From a virus: 20,252 nt of DNA. Of the stretch, positions 608 to 19,000 are shown in pieces. The notes beneath the pieces were generated by a model that was given only the letters and a program-made list of their open reading frames with translations, was not told the origin of the DNA and did no database searches. Position 1 is the first letter of the stretch. Each line of letters begins with the position of its first letter. The position numbers and the translations under genes were made by a program. Where the stretch lies: positions 1 through 20,252 of the IMG/VR virus record IMGVR_UViG_3300010883_000687, one strand, 5' to 3'.

Positions 608-1060
608 ATGGCAATACCAAAGAGAGAAATATTTAGAATTAATCCTGATGATATCGATGAGAATGTAGCTATTGGTATAGATCTTCCACTTGTTGCTCAA
701 AATGGAACTCCATTCTCACAGACGCATTTGACAATTCATGCGGCAAAGGCCAATCTTAAGAATTTAATATTAACTAGAAAGGGAGAAAGACCTTTTCAAC
801 CATGGTTTGGTACTAGTATTTACGATTTTCTATTTGATAATAATATTCCAGAAATGTTGGTTAAAATGGAAAATGAAATAAATGAAGCAATAGATTATTG
901 GCTACCATACCTAGACATCAGAAACTTAGAAGTTAGAGTAGCTGGTTCAAACCATGGATTTAGTGACAATTTTAATGGAGTACAAATACAGATAGATTTT
1001 TCATTAAAGGGAAATAGGTTTAGTGAAGAATCTATTGTAGTCGTGATAGGGACAGAATAA
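608..1060 (+). CDS. 25: gp25-like baseplate wedge subunit
   Basis: This 150-residue protein belongs to the T4 gp25 / P2 gpW family, often labelled 'gp25-like lysozyme' although the family is structural. The diagnostic segment is at residues 50-72, LKNLILTRKGERPFQPWFGT, followed by a helix around 80-97 and a beta-rich C-terminus (about 100-145). T4 gp25 is 132 residues, so this copy has a slightly longer N-terminus. In the T4-type tail gp25 sits at the inner baseplate with gp6 and gp7 and helps start sheath assembly. The ATG has only a weak ribosome site (AGTAG). The last A of its TAA is the first base of the next gene's ATG, so the two are probably translationally coupled. The gp6 homologue directly downstream strongly supports the assignment. 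Confidence 0.93.
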   Translation: MAIPKREIFRINPDDIDENVAIGIDLPLVAQNGTPFSQTHLTIHAAKANLKNLILTRKGERPFQPWFGTSIYDFLFDNNIPEMLVKMENEINEAIDYWLPYLDIRNLEVRVAGSNHGFSDNFNGVQIQIDFSLKGNRFSEESIVVVIGTE

Positions 1061-2940
1061 TGACATTAGTAAAAAAAGAAGTAAAATACTTAAATAAAGA
1101 TTTTTCTCAATTCAGAGATAAACTGCAAAATTTTGCGAAGGTATATTTTCCAGATACCTACAATGATTTTAATGAATCCTCACCAGGAATGATGTTTATC
1201 GAAATGGCAGCCTATGTTGGAGATGTATTGTCATTATATATTGACAATCAACTTAGAGAATCAATGCTATTACACGCAGAAGAATCTCAAAATATTTACG
1301 ATATTTCACAGGCACTAGGATATAAACCTCAACCATCAACAGCCGCAACAACAATCCTAGATATATTTCAGCAAGTACCTGCAATTGGAAATGGATTAGA
1401 TATTGGTCCAGATTTTAGATATGCATTAGAAGTTGAAGAAGGATTAACTGTGAAATCAACAGAGAATACTGACATTGAATTTAGAACTTTAGAGAATTGC
1501 AATTTTCAATATTCTAGCTCTTCATCCCCAACAACTGTTTCAATATATAAGGTTGACAAGGACACTAATATTCCACAATACTATTTATTACAAAAATCAA
1601 CAAAGGCAATATCTGGTAAATTAGAATCTGAGATATTTAAGTTTGAAAGTCCTAAAAAGTTTGATAGAATTAGGTTAGGTCCAACTAATATCTTAGACAT
1701 AGCCGATGTGCGTGATGTTGATGGAAATAGGTGGCATGAAGTAGATTATCTAGCCCAAGATACGGTATATATGGACATCAAAATGGGAGATGACACAGAT
1801 CCGTTATTATCTACTTGGACAACTGAAGTGCCATATATATTGTCACTTAGAAGAGTTCCAAAAAGATTCATCAAGCGAATAACATCAGATAATCAAATGG
1901 AATTACACTTCGGAGCAGGAGTTTCAGCAAATGCAGACGAAGTAATACTTCCTAACCCTTCAAATGTCGGTATGCAACTTCCATATGGAAATATTAGCGG
2001 ATTAGACAATGCATACGATCCAACAAACGTTTTATTCACAAAGTCATATGGCCAAGCACCTTCAGATACGTCAATGGTTGTAAGATATTACACAGGAGGT
2101 GGAATTGCATCAAATGTATCATCAAAAACGTTAACTGATATATCTGGAAAAGCATTTGTTGGCGCATATGAAACCTTAAGTGATTCTGTTTTAACGTTTT
2201 GTAAAGATTCTATAGCGGTTACAAATCCAGAAGCTGCAACAGGAGGAAGAGGCCAAGAAACAGTTGAAGAAATAAGACAAAACGCGTTGGCAGTATATGC
2301 TTCTCAAAATAGAGCCGTAACCAAGGAAGATTATATTGCGAGAGTTTATTCTCTTCCAGGAAAATTTGGAAGTGTTGCAAAGGCATACATAGAACGAGAT
2401 GAACAACATAATACAGATACGGGTGCATCCGAATTTAATCCATTGGCATTAAATATATACACACTATCATATGATTCAAATAAGACTTTAATTCCATCAA
2501 ATACTGCAATTAAAACAAATTTGAAAACATATCTAAAAAAGTTCAGAATGCTAACAGATGGTATAAACCTTAGAAACGCATTTGTCATTAATATTGGAGT
2601 TAAGTTTGATATAATTACTCGTCCAAATACTATTACCAAGGAAGTTTTACTTAGAACTATCCACGAAACAAAAAAATATTTTGAGATTGACAAATGGCAA
2701 ATAAACCAGCCAATCTCAATATCAGACCTTGCGGCTACCCTAGACCAAGTTGAAGGAGTTCAATCTATTGTCAGTCTGCAGATAACAAACTTATTTGATT
2801 CAGAGTCAGGATATTCTGGAAATTATTATGATATTCAAGAAGCAACTAAAAATAACATAGTTTATCCTTCTTTAGATCCTAGTATATTTGAAGTAAAATT
2901 TCCAAACACTGACATAGAAGCTAGAATAATTGGAGCATAA
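1060..2940 (+). CDS. 6: gp6-like baseplate wedge subunit
   Basis: This 626-residue protein matches the T4 gp6 / P2 gpJ family; T4 gp6 is 660 residues. Visible landmarks in order: NESSPGMMFIEMAAYVGDVL at 38-57, running on to IDNQLRES (gp6 N-terminal region); PNPSNVG near 298 and a GGG-containing stretch near 345 (central domain); GGRGQETVEEIRQNA near 394 and AVTKEDY near 419 (the J-like core); and a beta-alpha C-terminal region with DLAATLDQVEGVQSI near 555-570. gp6 dimerises and links neighbouring wedges into the baseplate ring around the hub. The start overlaps the gp25 stop by one base, with AGGGA at 1048-1052 as ribosome site. No frameshift or missing segment is apparent. Confidence 0.95.
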   Translation: MTLVKKEVKYLNKDFSQFRDKLQNFAKVYFPDTYNDFNESSPGMMFIEMAAYVGDVLSLYIDNQLRESMLLHAEESQNIYDISQALGYKPQPSTAATTILDIFQQVPAIGNGLDIGPDFRYALEVEEGLTVKSTENTDIEFRTLENCNFQYSSSSSPTTVSIYKVDKDTNIPQYYLLQKSTKAISGKLESEIFKFESPKKFDRIRLGPTNILDIADVRDVDGNRWHEVDYLAQDTVYMDIKMGDDTDPLLSTWTTEVPYILSLRRVPKRFIKRITSDNQMELHFGAGVSANADEVILPNPSNVGMQLPYGNISGLDNAYDPTNVLFTKSYGQAPSDTSMVVRYYTGGGIASNVSSKTLTDISGKAFVGAYETLSDSVLTFCKDSIAVTNPEAATGGRGQETVEEIRQNALAVYASQNRAVTKEDYIARVYSLPGKFGSVAKAYIERDEQHNTDTGASEFNPLALNIYTLSYDSNKTLIPSNTAIKTNLKTYLKKFRMLTDGINLRNAFVINIGVKFDIITRPNTITKEVLLRTIHETKKYFEIDKWQINQPISISDLAATLDQVEGVQSIVSLQITNLFDSESGYSGNYYDIQEATKNNIVYPSLDPSIFEVKFPNTDIEARIIGA

Positions 2941-2942
2941 TT

Positions 2943-4067
2943 ATGATTTATAGTATAACTTCGTCCAAGGACACAACAATATATGAACAATTTGTAACTA
3001 AAAACACAGGCCTAGACGAAATCCTTCAACTGGAAAAGATAATTTCTTCGTCTGAAACAGCAAAGACATATAACTCTAGAATAATGTCACATTTTGATTT
3101 AACACACATCTCAAAATCGATTCTATCAGGAGATATAAAAGACACGTTTGAGGCTAAATTAAAACTATATACTCAAATGTCAATAGCTTTACCATACGAC
3201 TATTCCATATCGGTAAACGCAATATCTCAATCTTGGAACATGGGAATAGGTAGAGCCACTCACAATCCAAAAACAACTGAAGGAACAAGTTGGACAAATG
3301 CTAATACGGCAGCCGCTGAAGAATGGCACACATCTTCTGTAGCCTATCCGTTTGCCACAGGTACCACTGGTAGCCTATCAACTCAAACAGCTAAAGGCGG
3401 AGGAACTTGGTGGACAGGAAGTGATATTTCTCAGAACTTTACATATGAATCTTCCGATTTATCTGTTGATGTTACCGGTATTGTTAGACCATGGCTTAGT
3501 GGAAGTTGGGATGGCGGACCTGTTATTGCAAACGAAGGATTTATGATTAAGCGAACAGACACTGCAGAATATGATGGTGCAAATTATGGTACTATTAATT
3601 TCTTTTCTAAGGAAACTCACACAATTTACCAGCCAAAACTTCAGTTTGCATGGAATGACTTTTCTCCACTAACCGCAAGCCTATCACAATTAGATATTGG
3701 AGGTGATACTTTTGTGTATGTTAAAAATAATCGAGATAAAATTCACATGGATAGTAAAGAACGATTTAGATTAGTCGGAAGAGACAGGTATACAACAAAG
3801 ACATATTCAAACACATCTGCAGATTTAACAATAAAACATCTACCAACAAATTCATATTGGGCAATTGAAGATTATCAAACTGGAGAAAAGATAATTGACT
3901 ATGATACTAGTTATACAAAAATTAGTTGTGATACGGGTGGCAATTATTTTGACCTTTGGTTAGACCAATTAGAAATAGAGCGAAGATATAAAATAGTAGT
4001 AAAAAGTGTTAGTGGAAGTATTACAAAAATATTTGATAACGATTTAACATTCAAAGTGGTAAAATAA
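2943..4067 (+). CDS. DNRLRE-like beta-sandwich virion protein
   Basis: This 374-residue protein starts two bases after the gp6 stop, with GGAG at 2931-2934. Residues about 85-240 follow the layout of DNRLRE-type beta-sandwich domains: a strand ending in a Trp-rich segment (VNAISQSWNMGIGRAT, about 90-106), a threonine/tryptophan-rich loop, DVTGIVRPWLSG near 175, GFMIKRTD near 199, then SKETHTIYQPKLQFAW near 222-237. The rest (about 245-374) is beta-rich and resembles a second domain with no name I can give. These folds in secreted or surface proteins bind partners or carbohydrates. In this operon it is most likely a peripheral baseplate protein, sited where T4 encodes gp7/gp8. The domain call rests on motif pattern only; a generic structural protein is the safe reading. 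Confidence 0.85.
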   Translation: MIYSITSSKDTTIYEQFVTKNTGLDEILQLEKIISSSETAKTYNSRIMSHFDLTHISKSILSGDIKDTFEAKLKLYTQMSIALPYDYSISVNAISQSWNMGIGRATHNPKTTEGTSWTNANTAAAEEWHTSSVAYPFATGTTGSLSTQTAKGGGTWWTGSDISQNFTYESSDLSVDVTGIVRPWLSGSWDGGPVIANEGFMIKRTDTAEYDGANYGTINFFSKETHTIYQPKLQFAWNDFSPLTASLSQLDIGGDTFVYVKNNRDKIHMDSKERFRLVGRDRYTTKTYSNTSADLTIKHLPTNSYWAIEDYQTGEKIIDYDTSYTKISCDTGGNYFDLWLDQLEIERRYKIVVKSVSGSITKIFDNDLTFKVVK

Positions 4068-4068
4068 C

Positions 4069-5379
4069 ATGTCAAAACCAAGATATAGAAAAAATATTGT
4101 ACAAACAACTGAGAATCCTCAGCTTAGGGGTACCGCCACCGAAAATCACGACGCAATCTCAGAAAAGGAAATATATGTAACTCACCCGTCGGATGACGGA
4201 ATAGTCAATATCACAACATCTCAGCAAGATTATTATCCTTGGGATGCAGGAGCTCACATAATTACAGAAGAAATTGAAGATTTTAAGATAAACTTAGAAT
4301 TTGACTATTTAACAACAGACGCAGACAAAACACATAGAGATCTATCTGGCAACATAATATCACAAAACAATAGTTCAGATATTGGCCAGGATCTTGTAAT
4401 TGTTCCACAGCGCCATGTATTAGAAAAACATCAATATGTAGACATTGTCGATGTCGATATTACAGAATTAATACAAAAAATAGAGTATGGTCCTACGGGT
4501 CCTCCAATATTGCGAGAAAATCCTAATTCTCTCAAGACAACAGGAATACTTATTTTCCCTACACATGGTACATCTGATGGCCAAATAACAGATGGCGACA
4601 GTATTTTTGAAGACCCGATGTTAGCAACTATTGTTTATCAATTTCCAGGAAACCACAGTAGAGTATTGATTGCAGATGCATATAGTTATTTAGGAGAAGA
4701 TGACGTGGAAATTGAAGACGAACTAACATATGAATGGGTATATAATTCCGATGCACCAGCACAATATGGCTTAGCAACTAGAAAAAAGATTAGTAATAAA
4801 ATCGTAAGCACAGAAAAGAAACTATCTTTAATAAATGGAACAATATTTGATACTGGATTTTATTATTGTAGAATTAAGAATTCAAAAGGAACAACTAATA
4901 CGTCAGAATTATACATACTTTGCAAAGGAGGATTAATTATTGAGCGAGAGGCACTAACAGATCCGGAAGGAACGTTCATAGGATATGGCCAACCAACTGG
5001 AGAATTGCTTGAAGACCAAAAACACAATATGCAGTTTCATAAAACAGCCGGCTGGATGGATTTTGATACCACTGAAAACCAATGGATACGAACATCTTGG
5101 GATCGGAATTCTGAAGAATGGTATAGGCGTGATGCTTACAATGACTATGATCCATGGAGAACTCCAAAGTATGGTCCGGAGCCACAATCAAATGATGATG
5201 TAAAGGAACAATTAGCATCTCCAACCAAGTCAAATTATGTTAGTAAAGATGCCATAGCTAAAAGAGCCCAACCAGTACGACAAGAAATAGGAATATCACA
5301 AGTACAAAAAGTAGCAAGAAATGTTATAAAAAATAATGTTTTAGGTAGAAGTAGAAGAATAATAAACCCGGGATTATAA
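4069..5379 (+). CDS. Virion structural protein with Ig-like domain
   Basis: A 436-residue protein that starts one base after the previous stop and has no clear ribosome site. Residues about 190-287 look like an immunoglobulin-like domain: a WVYN strand near 223, then DTGFYYCRIKN at about 261-271, the D-x-G-x-Y-x-C pattern of I-set and V-set Ig folds, and a closing strand SELYILC. No cysteine sits before the Trp, so the usual Ig disulphide partner of C267 is missing; C285 is the only nearby cysteine. The N-terminal part (1-180) is beta-rich and unassigned. The C-terminal 50 residues are basic and Gln-rich. Ig-like domains are common on phage capsid and tail surfaces, where they give weak adhesion. 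Context puts this one on the baseplate. Its last base overlaps the next start (TAATG). Confidence 0.87.
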   Translation: MSKPRYRKNIVQTTENPQLRGTATENHDAISEKEIYVTHPSDDGIVNITTSQQDYYPWDAGAHIITEEIEDFKINLEFDYLTTDADKTHRDLSGNIISQNNSSDIGQDLVIVPQRHVLEKHQYVDIVDVDITELIQKIEYGPTGPPILRENPNSLKTTGILIFPTHGTSDGQITDGDSIFEDPMLATIVYQFPGNHSRVLIADAYSYLGEDDVEIEDELTYEWVYNSDAPAQYGLATRKKISNKIVSTEKKLSLINGTIFDTGFYYCRIKNSKGTTNTSELYILCKGGLIIEREALTDPEGTFIGYGQPTGELLEDQKHNMQFHKTAGWMDFDTTENQWIRTSWDRNSEEWYRRDAYNDYDPWRTPKYGPEPQSNDDVKEQLASPTKSNYVSKDAIAKRAQPVRQEIGISQVQKVARNVIKNNVLGRSRRIINPGL

Positions 5380-8300
5380 TGACTTGGAACAAGAAATACA
5401 AAGAAACAGACCTTAAGCTTATACCGTCAAAACCAATTCTATCTGATTTTGGCAAAGCCCTTGATGTCGAAGACCGCGTAGAATTCAGTATACATTCAGC
5501 AGATGGTGAAAGCTTATTGTTTTCTAACATAGACCTAGAAACATATAAGGTTGCAGAAGGTGGAATTCTTGATGATGGCACAATAAATAGTGATTCTGTT
5601 ATATTTTTAGATATACATAATGATATTAGAGAATATGTATCATCTGGAACATTTCTGGTAAAATATAATTTCTACAGAACAGTTGTTGGAACTCCAGGCG
5701 ACGGCGTTAACGATTTATATATTGACGAAATAAGTGCCAGTAGAAAGGAAATACGATTAAAGATAAGTGGAGATGCCACTCAAATAGAACAAGAAATATT
5801 TGAAGATTTTGGTGATAAATTATCTATAAAAGGAGATGTTGCACACTGGGTAGACGTCCACGTTAATTTTGGTGGCGGAATAGTTCCATTGGCTGTTAAT
5901 TGGCAACTTGACAAGGTTTCTACTTCTGAATTTCCATACTCAATTGTACTAAAACTATATGACCCTCTTCCAGTTGAAATAACTAAAGGCGCTCCATGTT
6001 GGATTGTACAAGAAATGATAACACCTATTCAGGAAACTGTTTTTGTTGAATCTCCTGAAATAGAACTACAAATAAACATGTTACGACCTGCAAACTTCAC
6101 AGCAGGTAGTGATGAAAATTTAGGAAGTGGAACAACTGGTTTTGAATCGTTCAATTCACTAACAGCTGCAAAAGAAGGAGTCTTAAATAAAATACTAAAC
6201 AACTATTTTTCAGGTAGTATCGATAGTATTACCCCTGTCGTAGATTATAGAAGATTTTCTCACTTTGTACGATTTGGATCTGCTGAAGAGCGAATAACTA
6301 ATTTTAGGTATAAGCTTTCCCAAATGGAGTACTATGATACACAAATACTTGAACTCCAAGCAAATCCCCATTCGGCATCATACCATTATCTTGCAAATAT
6401 AGATACACATAAAACTCGAAAAAATGAAATTGTTTCAAATTTTGACAACTATGAAAAGTTCCTATATAATGAATCAGCGTCATATGCAACCAGCTCGTTA
6501 GGAGAGTTCTATCCAACAACTTGGCCAAAACAGTCTGCTATACAATATCCTAAGTCCCCTTATATATGTCAATCTGTAACCTCATCAGCCGCAATGGATT
6601 GGTATGATGGAGCAATCGCATCTGCATCATATTTTGATACACACAATATACATTCCCTAGCTAATACAGCCATTCCGTTACATATACACCAAGATCCAAC
6701 AATTGGTGGAGAAGAAAATGTAAATGACGGATATGTAAAGTTTGTAAATATGATTGGCCAATTCTATGACGAAATTTACCTATATATTTCAGCAATTCCA
6801 GAAATATGGGATAGACATAACGTAATTGATGCAAGACTTATTGAAGGACAATTCTCAGGATCAGATATGATATCGAAAGATTTATTATTTGCCGGACTTC
6901 AAAGCTTAGGATACCAACAGTGTACACCAGCCGATGATTCAGATTTATGGGCATATCTACTGGGAACGGATGAAGATGGCCATTATGGTGATAAAACAAT
7001 AAATGAGCGCATAGGAGATTGGGGATATTGGAATGCTCCTGATGATATGTTTGCAAGTGCAAGTTATGTGGAAGGAATTTCTCCATTTACTCAAACAAAA
7101 ATATATGCTTCAGATTGGTACCAAACATCACATTCAGTTGCACTACAGGACGTTCGACATGAGTATTCAAAGAGAATTCTAAACAACCTACCATATTTAA
7201 TGAAATCAAAGGGAACGTTAGAAGGACTAAAAGCCTATATGAATATATATGGCGTACCCCAAAGTCTATTTAAGATACGAGAAGCTACTGCTCCACCACC
7301 TGTAGATTATTTTGCAAATCACTATTATGAGTATGACTATTATAATTATGCATTAAGTTTTAATGGTTCTTGTGCACTAACTGCTTCATGGGACAAGATT
7401 GTAGATCCAACCATCAAAGCCGATCAAAATAATAGAGAACAATATCCAGACACAATAGAATTTAGGTATAAGATTCCAGATATGTTGGACCACAAACTCC
7501 AATGTGGAAAATTAAATTTTGAAATACTTGACAATAATGCTAATAAAAAAGATATGGTTGTTGTCCAAATTAATTCAAGTTCATTTGTTGCTGTAGAACA
7601 TGCATCAAGATTACCAAGTGGAAGTGAAACATATAATTTTCCAACTGGTGAAAATAGCAACTATGGTAGAATGACATTTGCACTAGGAGTAAACGATGGA
7701 ACATATCAATATCCTGTGACATATTTGTCATGTTCGACTGATTGGCAACCTATTTATGATGGTGATTGGTGGAATTGTATGGTACGAAGAAATGCACCAA
7801 CAGCTACAACAGTGCCGGTACAAATCGCAGAAACATTTACATATGATCTTTTCTGTAAAAAAGCATCAGACTGGTCAGGCGCAACGATTTCACATGCATC
7901 TTCTGCAAGTATGACTCAGAACGGTGGAACAACCTATGGAAAATTAGCAAATCATAGTTGGAATTCCGATGGATTTGACGATACCCAATATGTTAGCTCA
8001 AGCTTCTATACTCCTGAAAACAATTACTCAGATTTTTCAATCGGATATGCTGAAGGACACTTTGGATCCAACTATGATTCTTTCTTTGTTGGAGGAGCGG
8101 TTCACAGTACAGAATGGGGAATAAATAGAACTCCAGGAATATTGTATAATAACTTTAGTGGCTCAATGCAAGAGCTACGTTTTTGGGTAAAACCACTATC
8201 AGAATCTGCATTTGATAATCATGTATTTAGTCCTATGGCTATTGACGGAAACACATATACTTCATCATATTCTGACCTTATAGCTAGATGGTCTCTAGGT

Positions 8301-11189
8301 GCTGACTTAAAAACATACCCAATTATTACTGGTACAAAACTAAGATCTTCTCATCCTAACCAAGACATTGACCGTCCATTCTCTGGAAACAGAAGTACAT
8401 ACTTAACGTCAAGTGGATTTACCGGCCTCAACGATTACGAAGACCAATATGAACGAGTTTCAACTATAGTACCAAATTATATTGGAATGGATTCTCGCGA
8501 AAAAATAAGAATTGAAGACAATGAACTTGTAAATGGAACCTTAAGTAGCACAAAAAAATCATCTGTAAGTGCAAGAGATTCTGCACCAAAAGATGAAAAT
8601 AGAATTACAATAGAACTAACACCAGTTGACGGAATCAATATTGATATAGAACACCAATTGGGTGGAATAGACTTTAATGATTTAGTTGGAGATCCTCGCG
8701 CAAGATACATGGAATATTATCCAGATGTTGTATATTATGATAGTCATTATTGGTTAAAGCACTTCGGACCGTTCAGATATGCAGAATTTTTTAATCTTGT
8801 AAAATATTATGATGGACAAATTCTCTGTCAGCTGAGAAAGAATGTTCCAGCTAGAAGCCAACCTAACTTTAGTATTACAATTCAACCGCATATACTTGAA
8901 AGACCTAGGTTTCCTTGGCGAATACCCGATATAGAACATGATCTGATAGAAGGAAAAATGGCAGCAAGGGTTCATTTGCATGGTGCAACAACTGAATTAG
9001 GACGATTTAAGCATAATGGTCCTGGAGATCCATTTTATTCTGATTGGGATAAACGCGGACCATTAGAATCTAGATATGGCGACCTAATTAACCCAAGCCA
9101 CAGGTTTGGCCACAGAGACCAAGCGCACATGTTGCCTCCTATTGATATGTCATATGGATTTGGTGGCCAACATGAACGAGAACGAAACCCTTTAAGCCTA
9201 TACAATACAACTGTTGGAGAACTTGAAGCAACTATTAAGAATGACCCATTTGCACCAATAATACTAGATATGGGATGTTGGGAAAGAGACCAACATATAG
9301 ATGCAAGATATGAGTTTATGGTACCAGTTCACTGGGGTTCTTCTAAAGGAAGTTTTTGGAACTATACAGTTTCGCCACAAACATCAACAGCCGCAACGGC
9401 AGCTTCAACTGAACTACATATAAATGGCACATGGCCTCCAGCAGCAGAAGGATATTTTAACTCAAGTGAAATAGTTCTAACTGCACAAGATGGAACAATT
9501 ACTCCAATAATTGTAGGTGACGCAAGAGCAGCAGCGGCAGCCTCAGCAACGATTACTTTCCCTAATCCTACCAAAACAGAATCTATGGATGAAGGAATAG
9601 CTGTAATACATAGTGCATCGCTATATTTATCCGACACCACCGGCTCATATTTTGAATTCAACGGAACAGGTTCTCTACTTCAACCTGATGGATCTATAGT
9701 GTCAGAATCTGTTCATTCACTAGAAGATTATGTGAATGACCTTAAAACTAAAATACACGCCCACGTCAGCTTTAGTGCAACTACTGGTTCAAGTGGCGAA
9801 GGTTTTAGGTATATTGCAATAACTCAAACTCGAGCTGCAACTATGCCAAATCACCAACAATTAGCAGACAATACTACTTGGATAGATTATAATTCAAACG
9901 TACTGAGTGGATCTTTATTCCACACAAACATGGATCTTCCAACAGCCGACGAATGGACGTCACCATATGTAATATCTACTTCTTTTTCTGGAGGCAAGAC
10001 ACTAATAAATGCAGCTGCCGGTGCAGGTATCACATATACTGCAACTAGAGGAACATTAGCAACTAGAGTACGAACAGCAATCCACGCAGTTAGTGGATTC
10101 ACATGTGGAACTGTCCGCAATGTTGGTGATACTAGTATAATTCCTGTTACACAATCAACTGTTGGTGAAGATGGAAATACTCATATTAAAGGTAATTTCT
10201 TTGGTCCTTGGAATATATATTATCCTGAATATGGATATAATAAAAATTTAAGTAGAATACCAGGCAGCTATCTTCCTTTAGGAACAGGCGCACAACCATT
10301 TACAGATGGAAAAGATATTACCTATGCAAACAATATTACACTAGTTGAGGATACTACTAAGACTTTCATTACCCAGTCAAATCCGTATTGGGATAGAGAT
10401 GTTGTACATATAATTAGCCATCCATCTGATCCTAGAGAAACTGAAAGATGGTACGATTTTAATAAGCAAGAATATATTGGTAGCAATTTATTTCCAAACA
10501 AAGAAATGTCACAGGTTAACAGACAAGTTAATTTCCCAGTTGTAAATGCTGGACTAACATCATACGCAGATCAACGAAGTTGTAGAGATAGAGGAAAAGA
10601 GTGGTTCTTCCCATTTATTGGAAACCATAGAGAATCATTCTACAAGTCACGTGAAACATTTCGTTTCGCAACTGAGTTAAGCCAGTCATTAGGTAAAAAA
10701 GTACCACATACACAATTCGGCCAGTCAAGTATTGGTTATGGAAATCTTATTGGAGAATCAATCGTTTCACATAGTGGAGCAGCTATTCAAAATATAGCAG
10801 CAATATCAGTAATGAGTAGATCTGCACAATATCAAGATTATAGAGCAAAAGGAATACAAAATTTAATATATGACGGATGTATAATGTCAGCATCAGACTT
10901 TAATATTGATTCTCCACAAACATGTGATGGAGGACCAATTGTTGAAATAATCGACACAACACCATTTGTATTAACGGTTGCAGAACCAACTCTCGGACAA
11001 GGACCTGGTATAGTACAAGGAGAAGGTAGTGGTAGAGGAATAGGCAAGTATTCAGGACGAATTGTTGAACGAGGCGTTGCAGCAGGCAGAGGACAAGTAT
11101 TTAACAGCGGAGAAGGTAGAAGGATAAGATATAGTGTACGAGCTAATCCAGGAAGCAATTCGCCAATTAATCAAGACAAAGCGCGATAA
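5379..11189 (+). CDS. Giant gp7/gpI-like baseplate wedge protein with LamG-like insert
   Basis: This 1936-residue protein is much larger than T4 gp7 (1032). Order along it: an N-terminal beta-rich region (1-270); a helical stretch, HFVRFGSAEERITNFRYKL, near 296-315; a segment at 592-636 with RILNNLPYLMKSKGTLEGLK and YGVP, resembling the P2 gpI tail-protein motif; a concanavalin/LamG-like region at about 655-985 ending in ELRFWVKPLSESAFDNHVF; then a conserved-looking stretch with PARSQPNFSITIQPHILERP near 1157. Residues about 1344-1601 hold two related beta modules, each ending in an 'ITQ/VTQ' strand. Near 1832 is DGCIMSASDF. The last 60 residues are Gly/Arg-rich. The position after gp25 and gp6 fits the third wedge-core protein. 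The gp7/gpI equivalence is inferred, not proven. Confidence 0.9.
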   Translation: MTWNKKYKETDLKLIPSKPILSDFGKALDVEDRVEFSIHSADGESLLFSNIDLETYKVAEGGILDDGTINSDSVIFLDIHNDIREYVSSGTFLVKYNFYRTVVGTPGDGVNDLYIDEISASRKEIRLKISGDATQIEQEIFEDFGDKLSIKGDVAHWVDVHVNFGGGIVPLAVNWQLDKVSTSEFPYSIVLKLYDPLPVEITKGAPCWIVQEMITPIQETVFVESPEIELQINMLRPANFTAGSDENLGSGTTGFESFNSLTAAKEGVLNKILNNYFSGSIDSITPVVDYRRFSHFVRFGSAEERITNFRYKLSQMEYYDTQILELQANPHSASYHYLANIDTHKTRKNEIVSNFDNYEKFLYNESASYATSSLGEFYPTTWPKQSAIQYPKSPYICQSVTSSAAMDWYDGAIASASYFDTHNIHSLANTAIPLHIHQDPTIGGEENVNDGYVKFVNMIGQFYDEIYLYISAIPEIWDRHNVIDARLIEGQFSGSDMISKDLLFAGLQSLGYQQCTPADDSDLWAYLLGTDEDGHYGDKTINERIGDWGYWNAPDDMFASASYVEGISPFTQTKIYASDWYQTSHSVALQDVRHEYSKRILNNLPYLMKSKGTLEGLKAYMNIYGVPQSLFKIREATAPPPVDYFANHYYEYDYYNYALSFNGSCALTASWDKIVDPTIKADQNNREQYPDTIEFRYKIPDMLDHKLQCGKLNFEILDNNANKKDMVVVQINSSSFVAVEHASRLPSGSETYNFPTGENSNYGRMTFALGVNDGTYQYPVTYLSCSTDWQPIYDGDWWNCMVRRNAPTATTVPVQIAETFTYDLFCKKASDWSGATISHASSASMTQNGGTTYGKLANHSWNSDGFDDTQYVSSSFYTPENNYSDFSIGYAEGHFGSNYDSFFVGGAVHSTEWGINRTPGILYNNFSGSMQELRFWVKPLSESAFDNHVFSPMAIDGNTYTSSYSDLIARWSLGADLKTYPIITGTKLRSSHPNQDIDRPFSGNRSTYLTSSGFTGLNDYEDQYERVSTIVPNYIGMDSREKIRIEDNELVNGTLSSTKKSSVSARDSAPKDENRITIELTPVDGINIDIEHQLGGIDFNDLVGDPRARYMEYYPDVVYYDSHYWLKHFGPFRYAEFFNLVKYYDGQILCQLRKNVPARSQPNFSITIQPHILERPRFPWRIPDIEHDLIEGKMAARVHLHGATTELGRFKHNGPGDPFYSDWDKRGPLESRYGDLINPSHRFGHRDQAHMLPPIDMSYGFGGQHERERNPLSLYNTTVGELEATIKNDPFAPIILDMGCWERDQHIDARYEFMVPVHWGSSKGSFWNYTVSPQTSTAATAASTELHINGTWPPAAEGYFNSSEIVLTAQDGTITPIIVGDARAAAAASATITFPNPTKTESMDEGIAVIHSASLYLSDTTGSYFEFNGTGSLLQPDGSIVSESVHSLEDYVNDLKTKIHAHVSFSATTGSSGEGFRYIAITQTRAATMPNHQQLADNTTWIDYNSNVLSGSLFHTNMDLPTADEWTSPYVISTSFSGGKTLINAAAGAGITYTATRGTLATRVRTAIHAVSGFTCGTVRNVGDTSIIPVTQSTVGEDGNTHIKGNFFGPWNIYYPEYGYNKNLSRIPGSYLPLGTGAQPFTDGKDITYANNITLVEDTTKTFITQSNPYWDRDVVHIISHPSDPRETERWYDFNKQEYIGSNLFPNKEMSQVNRQVNFPVVNAGLTSYADQRSCRDRGKEWFFPFIGNHRESFYKSRETFRFATELSQSLGKKVPHTQFGQSSIGYGNLIGESIVSHSGAAIQNIAAISVMSRSAQYQDYRAKGIQNLIYDGCIMSASDFNIDSPQTCDGGPIVEIIDTTPFVLTVAEPTLGQGPGIVQGEGSGRGIGKYSGRIVERGVAAGRGQVFNSGEGRRIRYSVRANPGSNSPINQDKAR

Positions 11190-11273: not shown

Positions 11274-11948
11274 ATGGGATATTTAGACAAAACAACAATC
11301 ACTGTAGATGCAATTCTTACCAAGAAAGGTAGAGAACTTCTAGCAAAAAATAGACAAGCATTTGACATTACTAGATTTGCACTTGCAGATGATGAAATAG
11401 ATTATGCCCTATGGGATGTTAACCACGCATTGGGTACAAATTATTATGGACAAGCAATTGAGGCAATGCCAATAATTGAAGCAAGTCCTGATGAAAACCA
11501 AATGATGAAGTATAAGTTGGTAACGTTACCTAAAAATATTTCAAAGATGCCAGTAGTAACCGCATTACCAGGTGCAATAACTCTTACATCAGCAGGTCAA
11601 TCTGCAGTAGTTGTTCCATCAACAACAAACTTTCAAAATGGAAATAATACGTATGGATATACGGCAATCTTATCTGATAGTGATGCATGCTATTTGAATA
11701 TTGCACCAGGAGGTGCCATAGACTCAAGATTTAATCCATCTGTTCCATATGCAGTAGATGCAAATGTCAAATCAATAAGTGTTGTTGGAAAATCGTTTCA
11801 AATTGTTGCGAAGGCACAACCACTCACAGCAATATCAACTACATTAACAATAATCGGAAATGAAACTGGAGGATCTGCAACGGTAGTAATAACAGTTGAC
11901 AAACAGACAATTAGTACAAATGTACTAGAATCACCAGTATATAGATAA
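11274..11948 (+). CDS. Putative virion protein, marine T4-like type
   Basis: This 224-residue protein begins MGYLDKTTITVDAILTKKGR, then a short acidic stretch (FALADDEIDYALW, about 46-58) and YYGQAIEAMPIIEASPDENQ. I recognise this N-terminal half as a type found repeatedly in tail gene clusters of marine T4-like phages, without an assigned function. Residues about 95-224 are a beta-rich domain high in Thr, Val, Ser and Ile, probably a surface beta-sandwich. The start has a strong AAGGAG site seven bases upstream and follows the 84-base gap with a candidate promoter, so it may head its own transcript. No signal or membrane segment is seen. A structural role (tail or baseplate accessory) is inferred from context. 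Confidence 0.82.
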   Translation: MGYLDKTTITVDAILTKKGRELLAKNRQAFDITRFALADDEIDYALWDVNHALGTNYYGQAIEAMPIIEASPDENQMMKYKLVTLPKNISKMPVVTALPGAITLTSAGQSAVVVPSTTNFQNGNNTYGYTAILSDSDACYLNIAPGGAIDSRFNPSVPYAVDANVKSISVVGKSFQIVAKAQPLTAISTTLTIIGNETGGSATVVITVDKQTISTNVLESPVYR

Positions 11949-11961
11949 GGGAAGATAAAAA

Positions 11962-13179
11962 ATGGCATCATATAAAGACTCAAGAGGAAATCCTGTATCA
12001 CCAGCTAGATTGAGCCCATCTAACGCGGCCAACCAAAGCGATAGAGCAAACACTGATAGGTTAAAGCCTCAACAAGAACCAAATAGACGACCTTACGTAA
12101 GACCAAGGCCAAATCCAATAACACCAAGAGCTATAACTTCAATCTTTTCAGATTTTGGACCAGACGATGTTGTTGAAAATCTAGATTCAGAAGTAGTAAC
12201 TGCCGCATTATTTTCAGAAAACACTGGAGAAATTGCTGGAATGTTTACTTCATCGGCCCAAAGCCAAAGCTCTGGTGAATATTATTTAGATGTTTATCAA
12301 AAAGATCCATCAATAAACGCAAATCAAGAAATACAATTTGCAATTTCATATGGACACTATGCTGGATCAGGGTCTAGACCTCCACAATATGCTTCTAAAG
12401 GTTTTACACCATCTAAAGCAATATACACCCAATATGCAAATACATTGTTAAGTCCAGGAGACGATAGATTTACAATCGTAACACCACATGCACAATCAAC
12501 TGCAAATTTAACTTCTATATATGCTCTTAATTTTCAAAGAACTCGTATGAAAGAAAAGATCGATCCAGGTAATTGGGAATTGCATATTGGAGGAGACGGA
12601 TATCCTATAAAACTTATTGATGATTCAGCAGTATCTGATGGAACAGTAACTGAAGCTGGTAGAGTTTATCACATTAGAAGTGGAACAATTGATACAGGAG
12701 TAAATGCAGACGCTACACAATATGGTTTAGTATATCCTGATATGGGAATATTAATTTTAGATGCTAAAGGAATTAGTGGTTCTGCAAAATTAGATTTAGA
12801 TGAAACATCATTTGCATATTCTTCAACACCAGTTACAGTATCCAATGCAAATACAACTGCAATATTTAAGCACCTAAGTTCGTCAGATGGTACAAATGTC
12901 GGATATTTAGCTGCAAGAAGTAAGGAAACTATTCATTCTACGCATTATTTCATTAGAGTTAAGAATAGCGAATTTAACTTCTCAAACAACCCAACTTATA
13001 CATCAGGATCAGGCGGAACATTTGCAAACCCAACATTTTTCAGAGATCCAAAATCATATATCACTAGCATTGGACTATACAATGACAATAATGAATTATT
13101 GGCAATTGCCAAACTTAGTAAGCCATTATTGAAAACATATTCAAGAGAGGCTCTTGTTCGTGTAAAATTAGAATTCTAA
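11962..13179 (+). CDS. Virion structural protein with shared C-terminal domain (A)
   Basis: A 405-residue protein with AAGGGA at 11947-11952 as ribosome site. Residues 1-55 are polar and rich in Pro, Arg and Asn (NRRPYVRPRPNPITPRA), probably a flexible linker or docking tail. The middle (about 60-310) is beta-rich, with FQRTRMKEKIDPGNWELHIG near 193-212. The last 80 residues contain RVKNSEFNFSNNPTY and YITSIGLYNDNNELLAIAKL, then KPLLK and a closing beta strand. The same C-terminal pattern ends the next gene, so the two proteins are partial paralogues. This motif is one I associate with structural proteins of marine T4-like phages; no function is assigned. Likely a baseplate or fibre-base component. 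Confidence 0.83.
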   Translation: MASYKDSRGNPVSPARLSPSNAANQSDRANTDRLKPQQEPNRRPYVRPRPNPITPRAITSIFSDFGPDDVVENLDSEVVTAALFSENTGEIAGMFTSSAQSQSSGEYYLDVYQKDPSINANQEIQFAISYGHYAGSGSRPPQYASKGFTPSKAIYTQYANTLLSPGDDRFTIVTPHAQSTANLTSIYALNFQRTRMKEKIDPGNWELHIGGDGYPIKLIDDSAVSDGTVTEAGRVYHIRSGTIDTGVNADATQYGLVYPDMGILILDAKGISGSAKLDLDETSFAYSSTPVTVSNANTTAIFKHLSSSDGTNVGYLAARSKETIHSTHYFIRVKNSEFNFSNNPTYTSGSGGTFANPTFFRDPKSYITSIGLYNDNNELLAIAKLSKPLLKTYSREALVRVKLEF

Positions 13180-13193
13180 ATTGAGGAACATAC

Positions 13194-14954
13194 ATGTCAG
13201 AAGTATTTAAGACTTTTAAGAAAGATGACGTGTCTAAGCGAGACTTTAAAGCCAATAAGCAATATACACTCACAATGGCTAATTTCTCAGCCTCGTATAG
13301 ACCCGATCAACCCATGGTGTTCGGAAATCCCCAAGTATCTGTTGTCCCTACACTTTATGGATATGTAGGAAAGGCGGACAGATTTACAGAATTTACTAGT
13401 GGTAGTGAAGACTTAAATTCAATCGCACCAATTCCTTCAAGATCTATATGGGATAATCTTTGGCACATGTATTATAGAAATTGGCCAGAACCTAGTAAAG
13501 TTTTTTGTACATCTGGAGATTCCCGTGAACATAGAGAACTATATGATACTGCATATGTAATTTCTGTACCACATTATATGTATGGCGATGGAATACATCC
13601 TGGAACTGTTGATATCTCTTTTCCATCAACTCCAACCGGCCAAACCATAAACTTAACGGATGATAAATTTGGAAACCTATATAATAATGCGTATGCAAGT
13701 TCTAGTGGAGTTTCATTAGATGCAAGCATTCCTCCAAATGGAACTGTTTTATATCTTCCATTCAAAGATCTTACAACAAATCAATATATGCCAGCATATG
13801 GAAAAGGTTTTTTAGATACGCAAGTTGCATCTGGAAATATAAAGGATTACGGTAAATTTGAAACCACTATTCAATCAAATAGAATAAAGGTCATAACTGG
13901 AAGTGCATATGGAACAGGAATTGAATTTACGGGACAATATGGATCTGCATCCGCAATCCCAGCAGACGACACTTCCGCACAAACCAAGGAAAGTTGGAGC
14001 TATGCAACAATATCACCAACAGCCATTCCTGCACCCGGAGGTCACCTAGACTTTATTGAAAATGAAGATTTTGCAATTTCATTCTATGTTAACGTACCAT
14101 CAGCCCAACAATATGATATAGACAATAATTTCAACTATATATTTTCAACAAAGGATGACTTAACTTCATATTCATTTTTTGCGAGTATTGCATTTAATAA
14201 TAGTACAAAGAAAATTGTGGCAAAGCGAAGAGATGGACATGGCCAAACATCTATTTGTACTTCAACAACTTCTGTAAATGATGGAAACTGGCACCATATA
14301 TTATATCAAAAAACAGGAAATAGCCTACAATTATATGTAGATCAGTCATTAGAATCTTCTGCAACACATGCCGATGTAGGCCAAATTAGAAATAACCAAA
14401 CATTTATATTGGGAGCTAATGTTTCTGAGGTAGAAGGAGCTCTAGATCTATCAACAAACACAAGGCCAGTTTATGACCATATAAAGCAAGTGTTTAGAGG
14501 ATCCTTAGACGAATTTAGAATATATAGTGGCTCATTGACCAGTGCACAGGTAAATTATATGGGCACATCAAAAGGAACAGGCCAAAATCATTGGGGAAAT
14601 GTGTTTTATTCCCATGGCCAAATCGTACTGACACATCCATCTTCAGCATATACCGCAAAAGGCCCCGAAAAAGCAACAGTAACTTTTAGAGGAACGTCAA
14701 AAATTACAGAAAACATATATACATGTGACATTAAAGCAAATGAATATAACCAAACTTTGAATCCTTCAACAATAGAGAATCATAAAACGAAGGAATTATA
14801 TCATTTTACGAATACCGACGTATGGAACCCGTACATCACAAAGATAGGTTTATACAACGATGAAGGCCAATTGCTAGTTATTGGTTCATTATCACAACCA
14901 ATGCAAAAGATACCTGAATATGATATGACTTTTGTTGTAAGGTTTGACACTTAG
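13194..14954 (+). CDS. LamG-domain virion protein with shared C-terminal domain (B)
   Basis: A 586-residue protein whose ATG follows TGAGGA at 13181-13186. Residues about 80-140 contain WDNLWHMYYRNW and VISVPHYMYGDGIHPGTVDI, parallel to the 'FQRTRMKEKIDPGNW' part of the preceding protein. Residues about 258-455 are a LamG/concanavalin-type fold: DFIENEDFAISFYVNV, then NDGNWHHILYQKTGNSLQLY near 361-380 and FRGSLDEFRIYSGSLTSAQV near 434-453, the classic final strands. Residues 506-586 repeat the C-terminal domain of the preceding gene (YITKIGLYNDEGQLLVIGSL). So this looks like the same backbone with a LamG insertion. LamG folds bind glycans, which suggests host surface contact or fibre attachment; that part is inference. 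Confidence 0.87.
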   Translation: MSEVFKTFKKDDVSKRDFKANKQYTLTMANFSASYRPDQPMVFGNPQVSVVPTLYGYVGKADRFTEFTSGSEDLNSIAPIPSRSIWDNLWHMYYRNWPEPSKVFCTSGDSREHRELYDTAYVISVPHYMYGDGIHPGTVDISFPSTPTGQTINLTDDKFGNLYNNAYASSSGVSLDASIPPNGTVLYLPFKDLTTNQYMPAYGKGFLDTQVASGNIKDYGKFETTIQSNRIKVITGSAYGTGIEFTGQYGSASAIPADDTSAQTKESWSYATISPTAIPAPGGHLDFIENEDFAISFYVNVPSAQQYDIDNNFNYIFSTKDDLTSYSFFASIAFNNSTKKIVAKRRDGHGQTSICTSTTSVNDGNWHHILYQKTGNSLQLYVDQSLESSATHADVGQIRNNQTFILGANVSEVEGALDLSTNTRPVYDHIKQVFRGSLDEFRIYSGSLTSAQVNYMGTSKGTGQNHWGNVFYSHGQIVLTHPSSAYTAKGPEKATVTFRGTSKITENIYTCDIKANEYNQTLNPSTIENHKTKELYHFTNTDVWNPYITKIGLYNDEGQLLVIGSLSQPMQKIPEYDMTFVVRFDT

Positions 14955-15013: not shown

Positions 15014-15979
15014 TTGGCATTAGTATTTAGAGACATAAAAGGAGCACCACTTACCCATGATGAGGTAGATGGCAATTTCAGGCATCTAACAGGATCACAT
15101 GAGATATCTGGTAGTATATATGTACAAGGATCAGTATCGGCCAGTGGCAACCTAACTGGTAGTAATCTAATGCTAACGTCAACAGACTCAGTATTAGGTG
15201 TTTCTACTTTGAGTGCATCTAACTGGATAATTGCTCAACATATAACAGCATCTGGAAATATATCTGCAAGTGGAACAATATACGCAAATAATTTCCAATC
15301 AACAGGTGGTGATGTAGCCGGAATATCGTTTAATGACGATCTTAATATAACAGGTGACATCACATCATCTACAACTATAAAGGCAGAACACCTAATTTCA
15401 ACAGATGATGCAGTAATTGCAGATCTTTTAACAGTAGGACATATAACTTCAACTGGAAATTCAATTTTAGGAAATGCAACAACTGATACACATACAATTA
15501 CAGGAAATATAACAGCTTCTGGAGATTGGAATGTATCAGGTAATATAAGTGCAAGTGGATATGTTAGTGCTTCAGGCTTACATGTAGCTGGAAATACAAA
15601 TATTGAAGGTAATCTTGTTTTAGGAGGTAATTTAACAACTGACGGTAATGTCACATCGGGAGATGCAGATTCTGATTCTATAACATTCAATGCAGATATT
15701 ACTTCTGAAATTAGACCAAATACTGATGATATATATGACATGGGTACTTCTACACTTAGATGGAGAAACATTCATGCTGCAACAGCACAAGGTGAAGTAA
15801 GTGTACAAAATAAAATAACAGCATCTGGAACGTCAATATTGGCAGATGCACAAAATGGAATTTGGCTAGGACCATTCTCAATAAGTGGTACAGTCGATAT
15901 AGGACTAGGTAGCAATTACGTTATATCTAGTTTCAATAGGTTAAACGAAATAGATTTAATAAATTGTAGTGACTACTAG
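15014..15979 (+). CDS. Tail-fibre-type repeat protein (short)
   Basis: A 321-residue protein starting at TTG. The N-terminus, GAPLTHDEVDGNFRHLTGS, has the 'LT-x-x-EVD-x-NF-x-x-L' pattern seen at the base-attachment end of many phage fibres. Residues 30-230 are built of short beta repeats such as ITASGNISASG, GDIT and GNLTTDGNV, typical of a trimeric beta-helical shaft. Near 233-255 is IRPNTDDIYDMGTSTLRWRN, a shaft/hinge motif also found in the next gene. The C-terminus is unusual: 'NGIWLGPFSISGTVDIGLGS' and a Cys-containing end (INCSDY), with no recognisable head domain. It may be the proximal half of a two-part fibre. It lies 27 bases upstream of the long fibre gene. Confidence 0.85.
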   Translation: MALVFRDIKGAPLTHDEVDGNFRHLTGSHEISGSIYVQGSVSASGNLTGSNLMLTSTDSVLGVSTLSASNWIIAQHITASGNISASGTIYANNFQSTGGDVAGISFNDDLNITGDITSSTTIKAEHLISTDDAVIADLLTVGHITSTGNSILGNATTDTHTITGNITASGDWNVSGNISASGYVSASGLHVAGNTNIEGNLVLGGNLTTDGNVTSGDADSDSITFNADITSEIRPNTDDIYDMGTSTLRWRNIHAATAQGEVSVQNKITASGTSILADAQNGIWLGPFSISGTVDIGLGSNYVISSFNRLNEIDLINCSDY

Positions 15980-16006: not shown

Positions 16007-19000
16007 ATGAGTAGACTTAATGTAAACAGTGTAAACCCCCACGATGGAGTAAAACTCTCCATAACGGGTTCAACAGATGGAGCACTTATAATTAGTGCAT
16101 CGGGAGATAATGACACAAATCCATTATTGGAAGTGCAAGGATCGATATCCGCATCAGGAAATTTAACAGCATCTAATGCACTCTTTACGGGAAACATTAG
16201 AGTCATTGGAGAAGCAGTAATAAGTGCTTCAGCAGCCGGTGGTATATTCTTAGGAGATGCAAATACTGACAATGTAATATTCGGAGCAGATGTTAGTTCA
16301 AGTGTAATTCCAAATAATGATGACACATTTGACTTAGGGTCAAATTCACAACAATGGAAAGACCTATATTTAGACGGAACAGGATTTATTGACGCAATAG
16401 ACCAATCAGATACCACTGTAACTAATAATCTAAAAGGTGATTGGACTTGGCTAGATGATGGATCTGTACAGTCCCTAAAAGTTGACTCATCAAATGGTAA
16501 TGTCGGAGTTAAAGTAGCAGACCCTAACCAAGAATTTGAAGTTGCTGGTAGAATATCAGCCAGTGCACAACTTTCTGTTGGTGGTGCAGGTACTATTGAT
16601 GGTCACATTACAGGTTCAGGTAATCTTACAATATCAGGTGCATCATACTTTGCAGGCGATATCACATCATCCGGTGATTTACTTATTAAGTCACTTAAAG
16701 GTCCTTCAAGAATACAATTAGATGGAGATGCAGCTCTTCCTACCATTGATAATGATACAATCATGGTATTCCAAAGAAACTATTCAGGTTCTGCAAGTGC
16801 AGGAGTATCTATTATTGGTCACGCTGCTGGTGAATCTATAATTAAATTAGGAGACACTGATGATGAAGATGTAGGAAGAATAAGATATCAGCACACTGAT
16901 AATTCTATGGACTTCTTTACAAACAATGCCCAAGGAATGACTCTTGATGCTTCAGGAAATGTAACAACATCAGGAGCAATAAACATTGGCCATCATAGTG
17001 GTTCATATTCAAAGTTTGTATTAGATGGAACTGGAGCTCTTCCTACCATTGATAATGATACAATAGCAATATTCCAAAGAAATTTACCAGGTAGTTCAAC
17101 TGCAGCTATATCTGTTATTGGACATGTTGGTGGAGAATCTATATTGAAATTAGGAGATACTGATGATGAAGATGCAGGAAGAATAAGATATCAGCACACT
17201 GATGATTCTATGGACTTCTATACAAATGGTTCCCAAGGAATGACTCTTGATGCTTCAGGAAATGTAACAACATCAGGAGCAATAAATATTGGCCATCATA
17301 GTGGTTCATTTTCAAAATTCCAATTAGATGGAGCAGGAGCTCTTCCTACTATTGATAATGATACAATCGCATTATTTCAAAGAAATTTACCAGGTAGTTC
17401 AACTGCAGCAATAACTATTCTTGCCCATGTAGGTGGAGAATCTATATTGAAATTAGGAGATACTGATGATGAAGATATAGGTAGAATTAGATATATGCAC
17501 TCAGATAATTCCATGGACTTCATCACAAACAATACGCAACAAATGTCTATTGATGCTTCAGGAAACATAACAGCATCAAATAATATAAGTTCAAGTGGAT
17601 ATATGAGAGCTCCATATGTACATATAGGAAATATTACACCAGGAGGTATGAGACTTGGAGAAACAGGCGGTGCAGGAGTTGGTGGAGTAATGAAATTCGG
17701 AAACAGTGCAGAATTTTCAGCAACATTAACAAACTTAACTGCGTCAGGAACAATTACTGCTGCAGCAGCTACTATAACAACATTAACTGCAACTCATGGT
17801 GAATTTGATACAATAAACACTACTCAAATTACATCATCCATCGTAACTGCTTCAGTAATTTATTCAAGTGGCTCAAATATCTTTGGCGATGCAGGAGATG
17901 ATACACATACATTTAACGGTAACATAACAGCATCAGGTACTATAAGTGCAAGTAGCTATATAAGAACTCCATTCCTTCGTATAGGAGCTATTACACCAGG
18001 AGGTATGAGACTTGGAGAATCAACAGCAGGTATAATGAAATTTGGAGATGGTGGAGAATGGTCAGCAACATTAACAAACTTAACTGCATCAGGTAATATA
18101 AGTGGTTCATCTACTTCACAAGTATATGCCCAAGCCGGAAACTTTGACAGAGACGTTGGCGCTCAGTTTGTTAATGCAACTAATTATGTTACTAGTGTTA
18201 ATATAACAGCATCTAACAATATAATTGCAACTGGTTCTTTAGAGATTCAAGGAAATACTGAGTTAGGTAATGCTGCAACATCACACGTAACGGCTTCAGG
18301 TAATATATCATCAAGCGGATATATGAGAACTCCATTCCTTCGTATAGGAAATCAAACACCAGGAGGTATGAGACTTGGAGAATCAACAGCAGGTATAATG
18401 AAATTTGGAGATAGTGGAGAATGGTCAGCAACATTAACTAACTTAACAGCCTCAGGTAATATAAGTTCAAGTGCTAATTTAATTGGAAACAATATAAGTT
18501 CTTATGGAAATATGTCTACTGCAGGCGATTTAGAAGTTCTAGGATTGACAACGCTTGGAGATTCTTCCGCAGACACAACAACCGTTCACGGTAACCTTAC
18601 AGCCTCCGTTAATATAAAGGCCGCAGGTAATATAAGTGCAAGTGGAACCCTATATGGAAGCGAAGCACATATAACTGGTCACATAACAGCCTCAGGAAAT
18701 ATAAGTGCAAGTGGAAATATGTTTGCAAACCAATTAACAGCAATACATGATATGTCTGCAGGAAGAGATTTAGAAGTTCTAGGAAATACAACGCTTGGAG
18801 ACTCATCATCAGACGTAACAGTTGTTCATGGTAACCTTACAGCATCGGTTAATATAAGTGCAAGTGGTAATATATTTGCAAACCAAATAACAGCAATACA
18901 TGATATGTCTGCAGGAAGAGATTTTGAAGTTCTAGGAACTACAACTCTTGGAGACAGTGCAGCAGATGTTGTTGGATGTAATGCGCAATTCAGACCAGGA

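Follow-up and report, generated by a model that had tools for sequence, protein, structure and literature searches.

A 1936-residue protein with an internal laminin-G-like domain as a candidate gp7/gpI-type baseplate wedge subunit of environmental tailed phages

Genes at the locus and the ORF Z family

As listed in Table 1, the window (the whole 20,252-base virus record that was analysed) carries a gp25-type and a gp6-type wedge gene, followed by genes X and Y and by ORF Z, a single open frame with an ATG start. The original prediction of a 1936-residue protein at this place holds, as the frame is collinear in the sister virus L002 and in further relatives. The gp6 assignment upstream of Z is secure at the level of sequence comparison. 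Two genes separate gp6 from Z (gp6, X, Y, Z), unlike in T4 and P2. Genes for gp25 and gp6 were found upstream of Z in 64 of the 66 loci with enough upstream sequence and gene X (~374 aa) in all 96 with enough sequence, while most loci are devoid of gene Y; these are raw counts, in which near-identical contigs and early-ending loci were taken as they stand. The synteny of gp25, gp6 and X indicates that the Z locus is a contractile-tail baseplate operon. Gene X itself is linked to gp6 as tightly as Z is, gave no useful-level match to PDB sequences or PHROGs, and also carries inserts in two loci (L052 and L074).

Table 1. Genes of the window and segments of ORF Z, with the basis of each assignment.
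Feature	Position	Strand	Basis
gp25-type wedge subunit	608..1060	+	Pfam GPW_gp25 4.6e-11; phrog_261 1.6e-15
gp6-type wedge subunit	1060..2940	+	phrog_219/6/10646; hhalign T4 gp6 95.8%, HTVC008M gp6 96.6%
Gene X, 374 aa, conserved, no assigned function	2943..4067	+	upstream of Z in 96/96 loci
Gene Y, 436 aa, sparsely conserved, no assigned function	4069..5379	+	5/66 loci
ORF Z, 1936 aa, candidate gp7/gpI-type wedge protein	5379..11189	+	open frame and orthologues
Conserved core block N, Z residues 1-645	5379..7313	+	in all family members examined
'LP..I..D...F..F...Y' block, Z residues 431-478	6669..6812	+	by-eye likeness to T4 gp7 and marine T4-like gp7-position proteins
KGT signature block, Z residues 603-635	7185..7283	+	hhalign shuffles vs P2 gpI and gp7-type profile; sub-threshold PF09684
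Laminin-G/ConA-like domain, Z residues 654-1029	7338..8465	+	profile and predicted fold; missing in immuto clade
Conserved core block C, Z residues 1036-1182	8484..8924	+	homologue alignment
Clade-specific extension, Z residues 1183-1337	8925..9389	+	unmatched outside the window's clade
Beta module, first half, Z residues 1338-1386	9390..9536	+	alignment to single-module relatives
~157-aa insert, Z residues 1387-1543	9537..10007	+	window and L002/L003 only; splits beta module
Beta module, second half, Z residues 1544-1616	10008..10226	+	alignment to single-module relatives
C-terminal tail motif, Z residues 1813-1885	10815..11033	+	recurs near C-terminus in several distant homologues
224-aa conserved gene, downstream of Z	11274..11948	+	after Z in 101/129 loci
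405-aa gene	11962..13179		C-terminal domain in common with the 586-aa gene, hhalign 99.3%
586-aa gene	13194..14954		Laminin_G_3 4.4e-14
Further tail-fibre-like gene	15014..15979		phrog_4549
1139-aa gene, end of cluster	16007..19426		weak beta-solenoid matches

Searches of PHROG and Pfam with ORF Z of the window returned no match, no Pfam family exceeding the threshold anywhere along its length. The family as a whole has no PHROG entry and is touched by Pfam only in the laminin-G stretch; no description of it was found in the papers searched. The family is nevertheless large, comprising hundreds of viral contigs, with at least 591 matches confirmed by alignment search. L002 encodes a Z of the same length that is collinear end to end (83%), and relatives at 60-63% have proteins of ~1787-1820 aa, collinear with that of the window except for one insert. 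Distant homologues are found in Microcystis phage Mel-JY01 (WWT39511, 1336 aa, with a laminin-G domain), in a 484-kb uncultured phage (1400 aa) and in Flavobacterium phage immuto (KNV73_gp109, 1265 aa, without it). The Mel-JY01 and immuto loci keep the same gene order; neither protein has a C-terminal extension like that of the window's Z. In one clade (L036, L052, L021, L053, L074 and others) insertions of ~900-1900 residues lie near residues 106-156 of the N-terminal core, giving homologues of up to 3353 aa. A Pfam scan of three of these (L036, L052, L021) yielded only one sub-threshold CBM_4_9, in L052.

The laminin-G-like domain and its junction

Three routes converge on a laminin-G/ConA-like domain at Z residues 654-1029: Pfam in homologues, profile comparison and predicted fold. 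Laminin_G_3 was matched by 7 of 72 homologous segments (best 1.4e-6), although no Pfam model matched the window's own segment, and the family profile of the segment found the neurexin-1-alpha LNS domains with E=6.7e-5. The AlphaFold model of residues 1-1190 has a mean pLDDT of 70.9, rising to ~90 across much of the segment. Foldseek alone gave no PDB match for this model at E<=0.001, whereas VIA placed 4dqa, titled putative carbohydrate-binding protein, first (Z-score 16.7), followed by PAPP-A (16.1) and by laminin, agrin, neurexin and pentraxins (11-14). Over residues 654-1029 the likeness to the LamG/LNS domains of PAPP-A, agrin, neurexin and BACOVA_03559 and to pentraxins is one of fold (Z-scores 11-17), at only 9-16% identity. 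The laminin-G-like region that had been proposed at about 655-985 was borne out by these three routes, with its limits corrected.

The segment lies between conserved blocks, as the original prediction had it, and homologues differ in its presence. In a first survey of 93 family ORFs, core N and core C were separated by 280-409 aa in 91 and by 15-16 aa in the other two, which come from one MAG contig and from immuto. With the immuto protein as query, 21 loci were obtained (one of them, L094, being immuto itself); 20 reach core C, all with a gap of 14-18 aa and no match to the laminin-G domain. Given this near-empty junction, the domain is a discrete unit with an 'empty-site' counterpart.

The domain is old and nearly universal in the Z family. 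In a tree built from core block sequences, the rows without it make up one side of a branch with SH-aLRT 100; with the root at the midpoint they are nested among the carriers, which reads as one loss, while rooting the tree on the stem of these rows would give one gain instead. On the midpoint root, which is provisional, a single loss fits better, as the simpler course. The proposal that a core protein had taken up inserts thus stands in that the core is conserved and discrete segments lie between its conserved blocks, but not as regards a recent uptake of the laminin-G domain.

Among close relatives of Z the domain is ~66% identical, on par with the core. Median pairwise identity across the family is 25% for the domain, compared with 44.5% for residues 401-645 and 40% for core C; the first 400 residues of core N (29%) are nearly as divergent as the domain.

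A second laminin-G match in the window, in the 586-aa downstream gene, also lies between two blocks that are near-adjacent in relatives. The gap between these blocks is 0-138 aa in 37 ORFs and 271-442 aa in 34 including the window, where some ORFs represent the same contig twice and the large gap was confirmed as laminin-G in the window only. That the domains of this gene and of Z are copies of each other is not supported, as 479 of 1000 shuffles equalled their likeness.

The C-terminal third of ORF Z

Two related beta modules had been suggested at residues 1344-1601. This could not be upheld: residues 1401-1512 and 1513-1625 are no more alike than shuffled sequences (260 of 1000 shuffles equal). 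Relatives instead contain a single module, whose halves align to Z residues 1338-1386 (27.9 bits) and 1544-1616 (49.7 bits), while the ~157 residues between them score 1.1 bits against the module profile, a value equalled by 28 of 197 shuffles. Since the halves align to single-module relatives and the middle scores like shuffles, we read the region as one module split by an insert, with no demonstrated duplication. The insert is shared by the window and L002/L003 and occurs in none of the other clade members covering the region. L002 and L003 are identical to each other across residues 1-1200, and with the window they form a clade (support 100/100) whose position among the other members is not fixed by the tree. 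A search for the module in phages gave no match, and the AlphaFold model of the C-terminal part (pLDDT 33.5) was set aside.

Relation to gp7/gpI-type wedge proteins

P2 gpI (Tail_P2_I, PF09684) and T4 gp7 have been treated as one class in work on TssG (PMC6300606). Like them, Z is encoded in a gene region with gp25/gpW- and gp6/gpJ-type wedge genes and contains the KGT block; a place directly after gp6/gpJ, which is usual in this class but not strictly defining, is not that of Z. Z further differs in being 11 times as long as gpI and ~1.9 times as long as gp7, and in its internal laminin-G domain. No significant whole-length similarity links Z to either protein.

The resemblance is concentrated in the KGT block. 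When the C-terminal part of core N (~270 residues) was compared with 10 gpI sequences by hhalign, the best alignment fell at 'LLKTKGT..ikALin.YGIP' with a score of 24.5, which none of 200 column shuffles attained (best 23.7); as about a quarter of the shuffles also start at this block, it is the score and not the place that counts as evidence. Against a block profile of T4 gp7, HTVC008M gp055 with its relatives, and S-ShM2_093, the Z block scored 26.3 (0 of 200 shuffles, best 20.3), and gpI scored 26.3 against the same profile (0 of 200); the motif had already been noticed when this profile was cut around it, one row (L318) was wrongly cut, and the several shuffle tests were each taken singly. 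At the same place two homologues show sub-threshold Tail_P2_I matches (E 0.0085 and 0.024). Gene X as the gp7 counterpart is not supported, its score with the KGT profile (14.7) being equalled by 9 of 60 shuffles.

Broader comparisons were negative. Whole-length hhalign of Z against T4 gp7 gave nothing; as gpI against full T4 gp7 was likewise negative by the same profile method, this result carries little weight. With the C-terminal part of T4 gp7 alone, 22 of 200 shuffles were as good. An HMM search of A2 had no match in T4, P2 or S-ShM2, nor had the Tail_P2_I HMM in T4, S-ShM2 or HTVC008M, meaning that this model misses T4 gp7 as well. Foldseek and VIA listed no baseplate wedge for the Z model, their list being filled by laminin-G matches that mask the core. 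Of the proposal that Z is a gp7-type wedge protein, what persists is a signature that is specific to the gp7/gpI class though weak, not a whole-length match to T4 gp7. The proposed size of almost twice T4 gp7 is correct as a figure; it is weak evidence because the whole-length profile comparison was negative and because Z is separated from gp6 by two genes.

Taken with the synteny, these data make it probable that Z is a gp7/gpI-type baseplate wedge subunit with a lineage-specific C-terminal third. Its core (residues 1-645 and 1036-1182) would join the gp25-gp6 wedge of a contractile-tail baseplate, and the laminin-G domain would project from the fixed core junction, presumably exposed. By analogy with (gp6)2-(gp7)1 wedges (PMC6300606), the core may sit inside the wedge with the domain projecting from it. 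The suggested reach of a single polypeptide from the inner baseplate to the outside would be a conjectural extension of this picture. The domain would most likely contact a host-surface glycan, as its predicted fold suggests, or else an adjacent protein of the tail or fibres, and the C-terminal third would be an extension bearing a further small insert.

Z might instead be a surface protein, an adhesin or akin to a fibre, whose gene lies next to the wedge genes, its KGT likeness being due to chance. The laminin-G fold, the lineage-specific extensions and the fibre-like genes downstream are in line with this, yet the conserved helical core, its retention in phages of Microcystis and Flavobacterium, the near-invariant gp25-gp6-X synteny and the shuffle tests of the KGT block make it rather improbable.

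We also consider it unlikely that Z is a second-layer baseplate protein of the VrlC/A511 gp106 kind, the gp7 role then falling to gene X or Y. According to published work, gp7 is missing from pelagi- and cyanomyophages and VrlC takes its place; VrlC was proposed as the gp7 replacement in marine T4-like phages (PMC7029224). In pelagiphage HTVC008M the order gp25-gp6-1016 aa-462 aa-VrlC (2001 aa) gives VrlC the same rank as Z in gp25-gp6-X-Y-Z and a similar size, and A511 gp106-type proteins bear carbohydrate-binding folds (PMC11406892). However, Z compared with the single HTVC008M VrlC sequence by hhalign and hmmsearch stayed at noise level, so that a VrlC identity finds no support in sequence; moreover, the KGT block is in Z and not in gene X, and gene Y is missing from most loci.

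Within the assignment of Z to the wedge, the laminin-G domain could be purely structural, serving inter-wedge contacts or fibre docking with no receptor binding, a compatible option that we regard as somewhat doubtful. Its near-universal presence and its core-like identity among close relatives, unlike that of typical receptor-binding tips, speak for a structural role; against it, a whole clade does without the domain, the domain outpaces its neighbours in divergence at long range, and its top structural match bears the title 'putative carbohydrate-binding protein'. More broadly, we advance tentatively, as a real possibility, that Z represents a widespread, hitherto undescribed family of gp7/gpI-type wedge proteins that carry, at a fixed junction, a lectin-fold domain within the chain, the wedge as well as the fibres being a contact organ and the same core accepting inserts at other points.

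Wedge proteins with an extra carbohydrate-binding-type domain are already known. Vp4 Gp119 (BW3), a wedge protein, has two CBMs that are absent from its homologues Deep-Blue Gp177 and A511 Gp105 (PMC11406892). Gp119 and A511 gp106-type proteins resemble Z as wedge or second-layer baseplate proteins with additional domains of this type; they belong to Herelleviridae of Gram-positive hosts and carry CBM folds whereas Z carries laminin-G, and the likeness noted here is one of domain type. An internal laminin-G domain in a gp7/gpI-type wedge protein with a laminin-G-free sister clade, in a family without a PHROG, was not found in the collections and literature searched, whose limited coverage makes this no proof of novelty.

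If Z is indeed such a wedge subunit, this large protein, so far uncharacterised and encoded on hundreds of contigs of environmental tailed phages, can be named as a part of the baseplate, and Z proteins with and without the laminin-G domain provide a natural test of the domain's role. The KGT block would then also help to locate the gp7 equivalent in those marine T4-like phages that were reported to be devoid of gp7. Cyanophage S-ShM2_093 (6198 aa; L131:13455-24288) and HTVC008M gp055 (1016 aa; L253:13436-16486) resemble Z in being large, encoded after gp6 and provided with a KGT block; unlike Z they lie directly after gp6, and they have no HMM match to it. Their block is like that of T4 gp7 and gpI, though gp7 has been reported absent from these phages.
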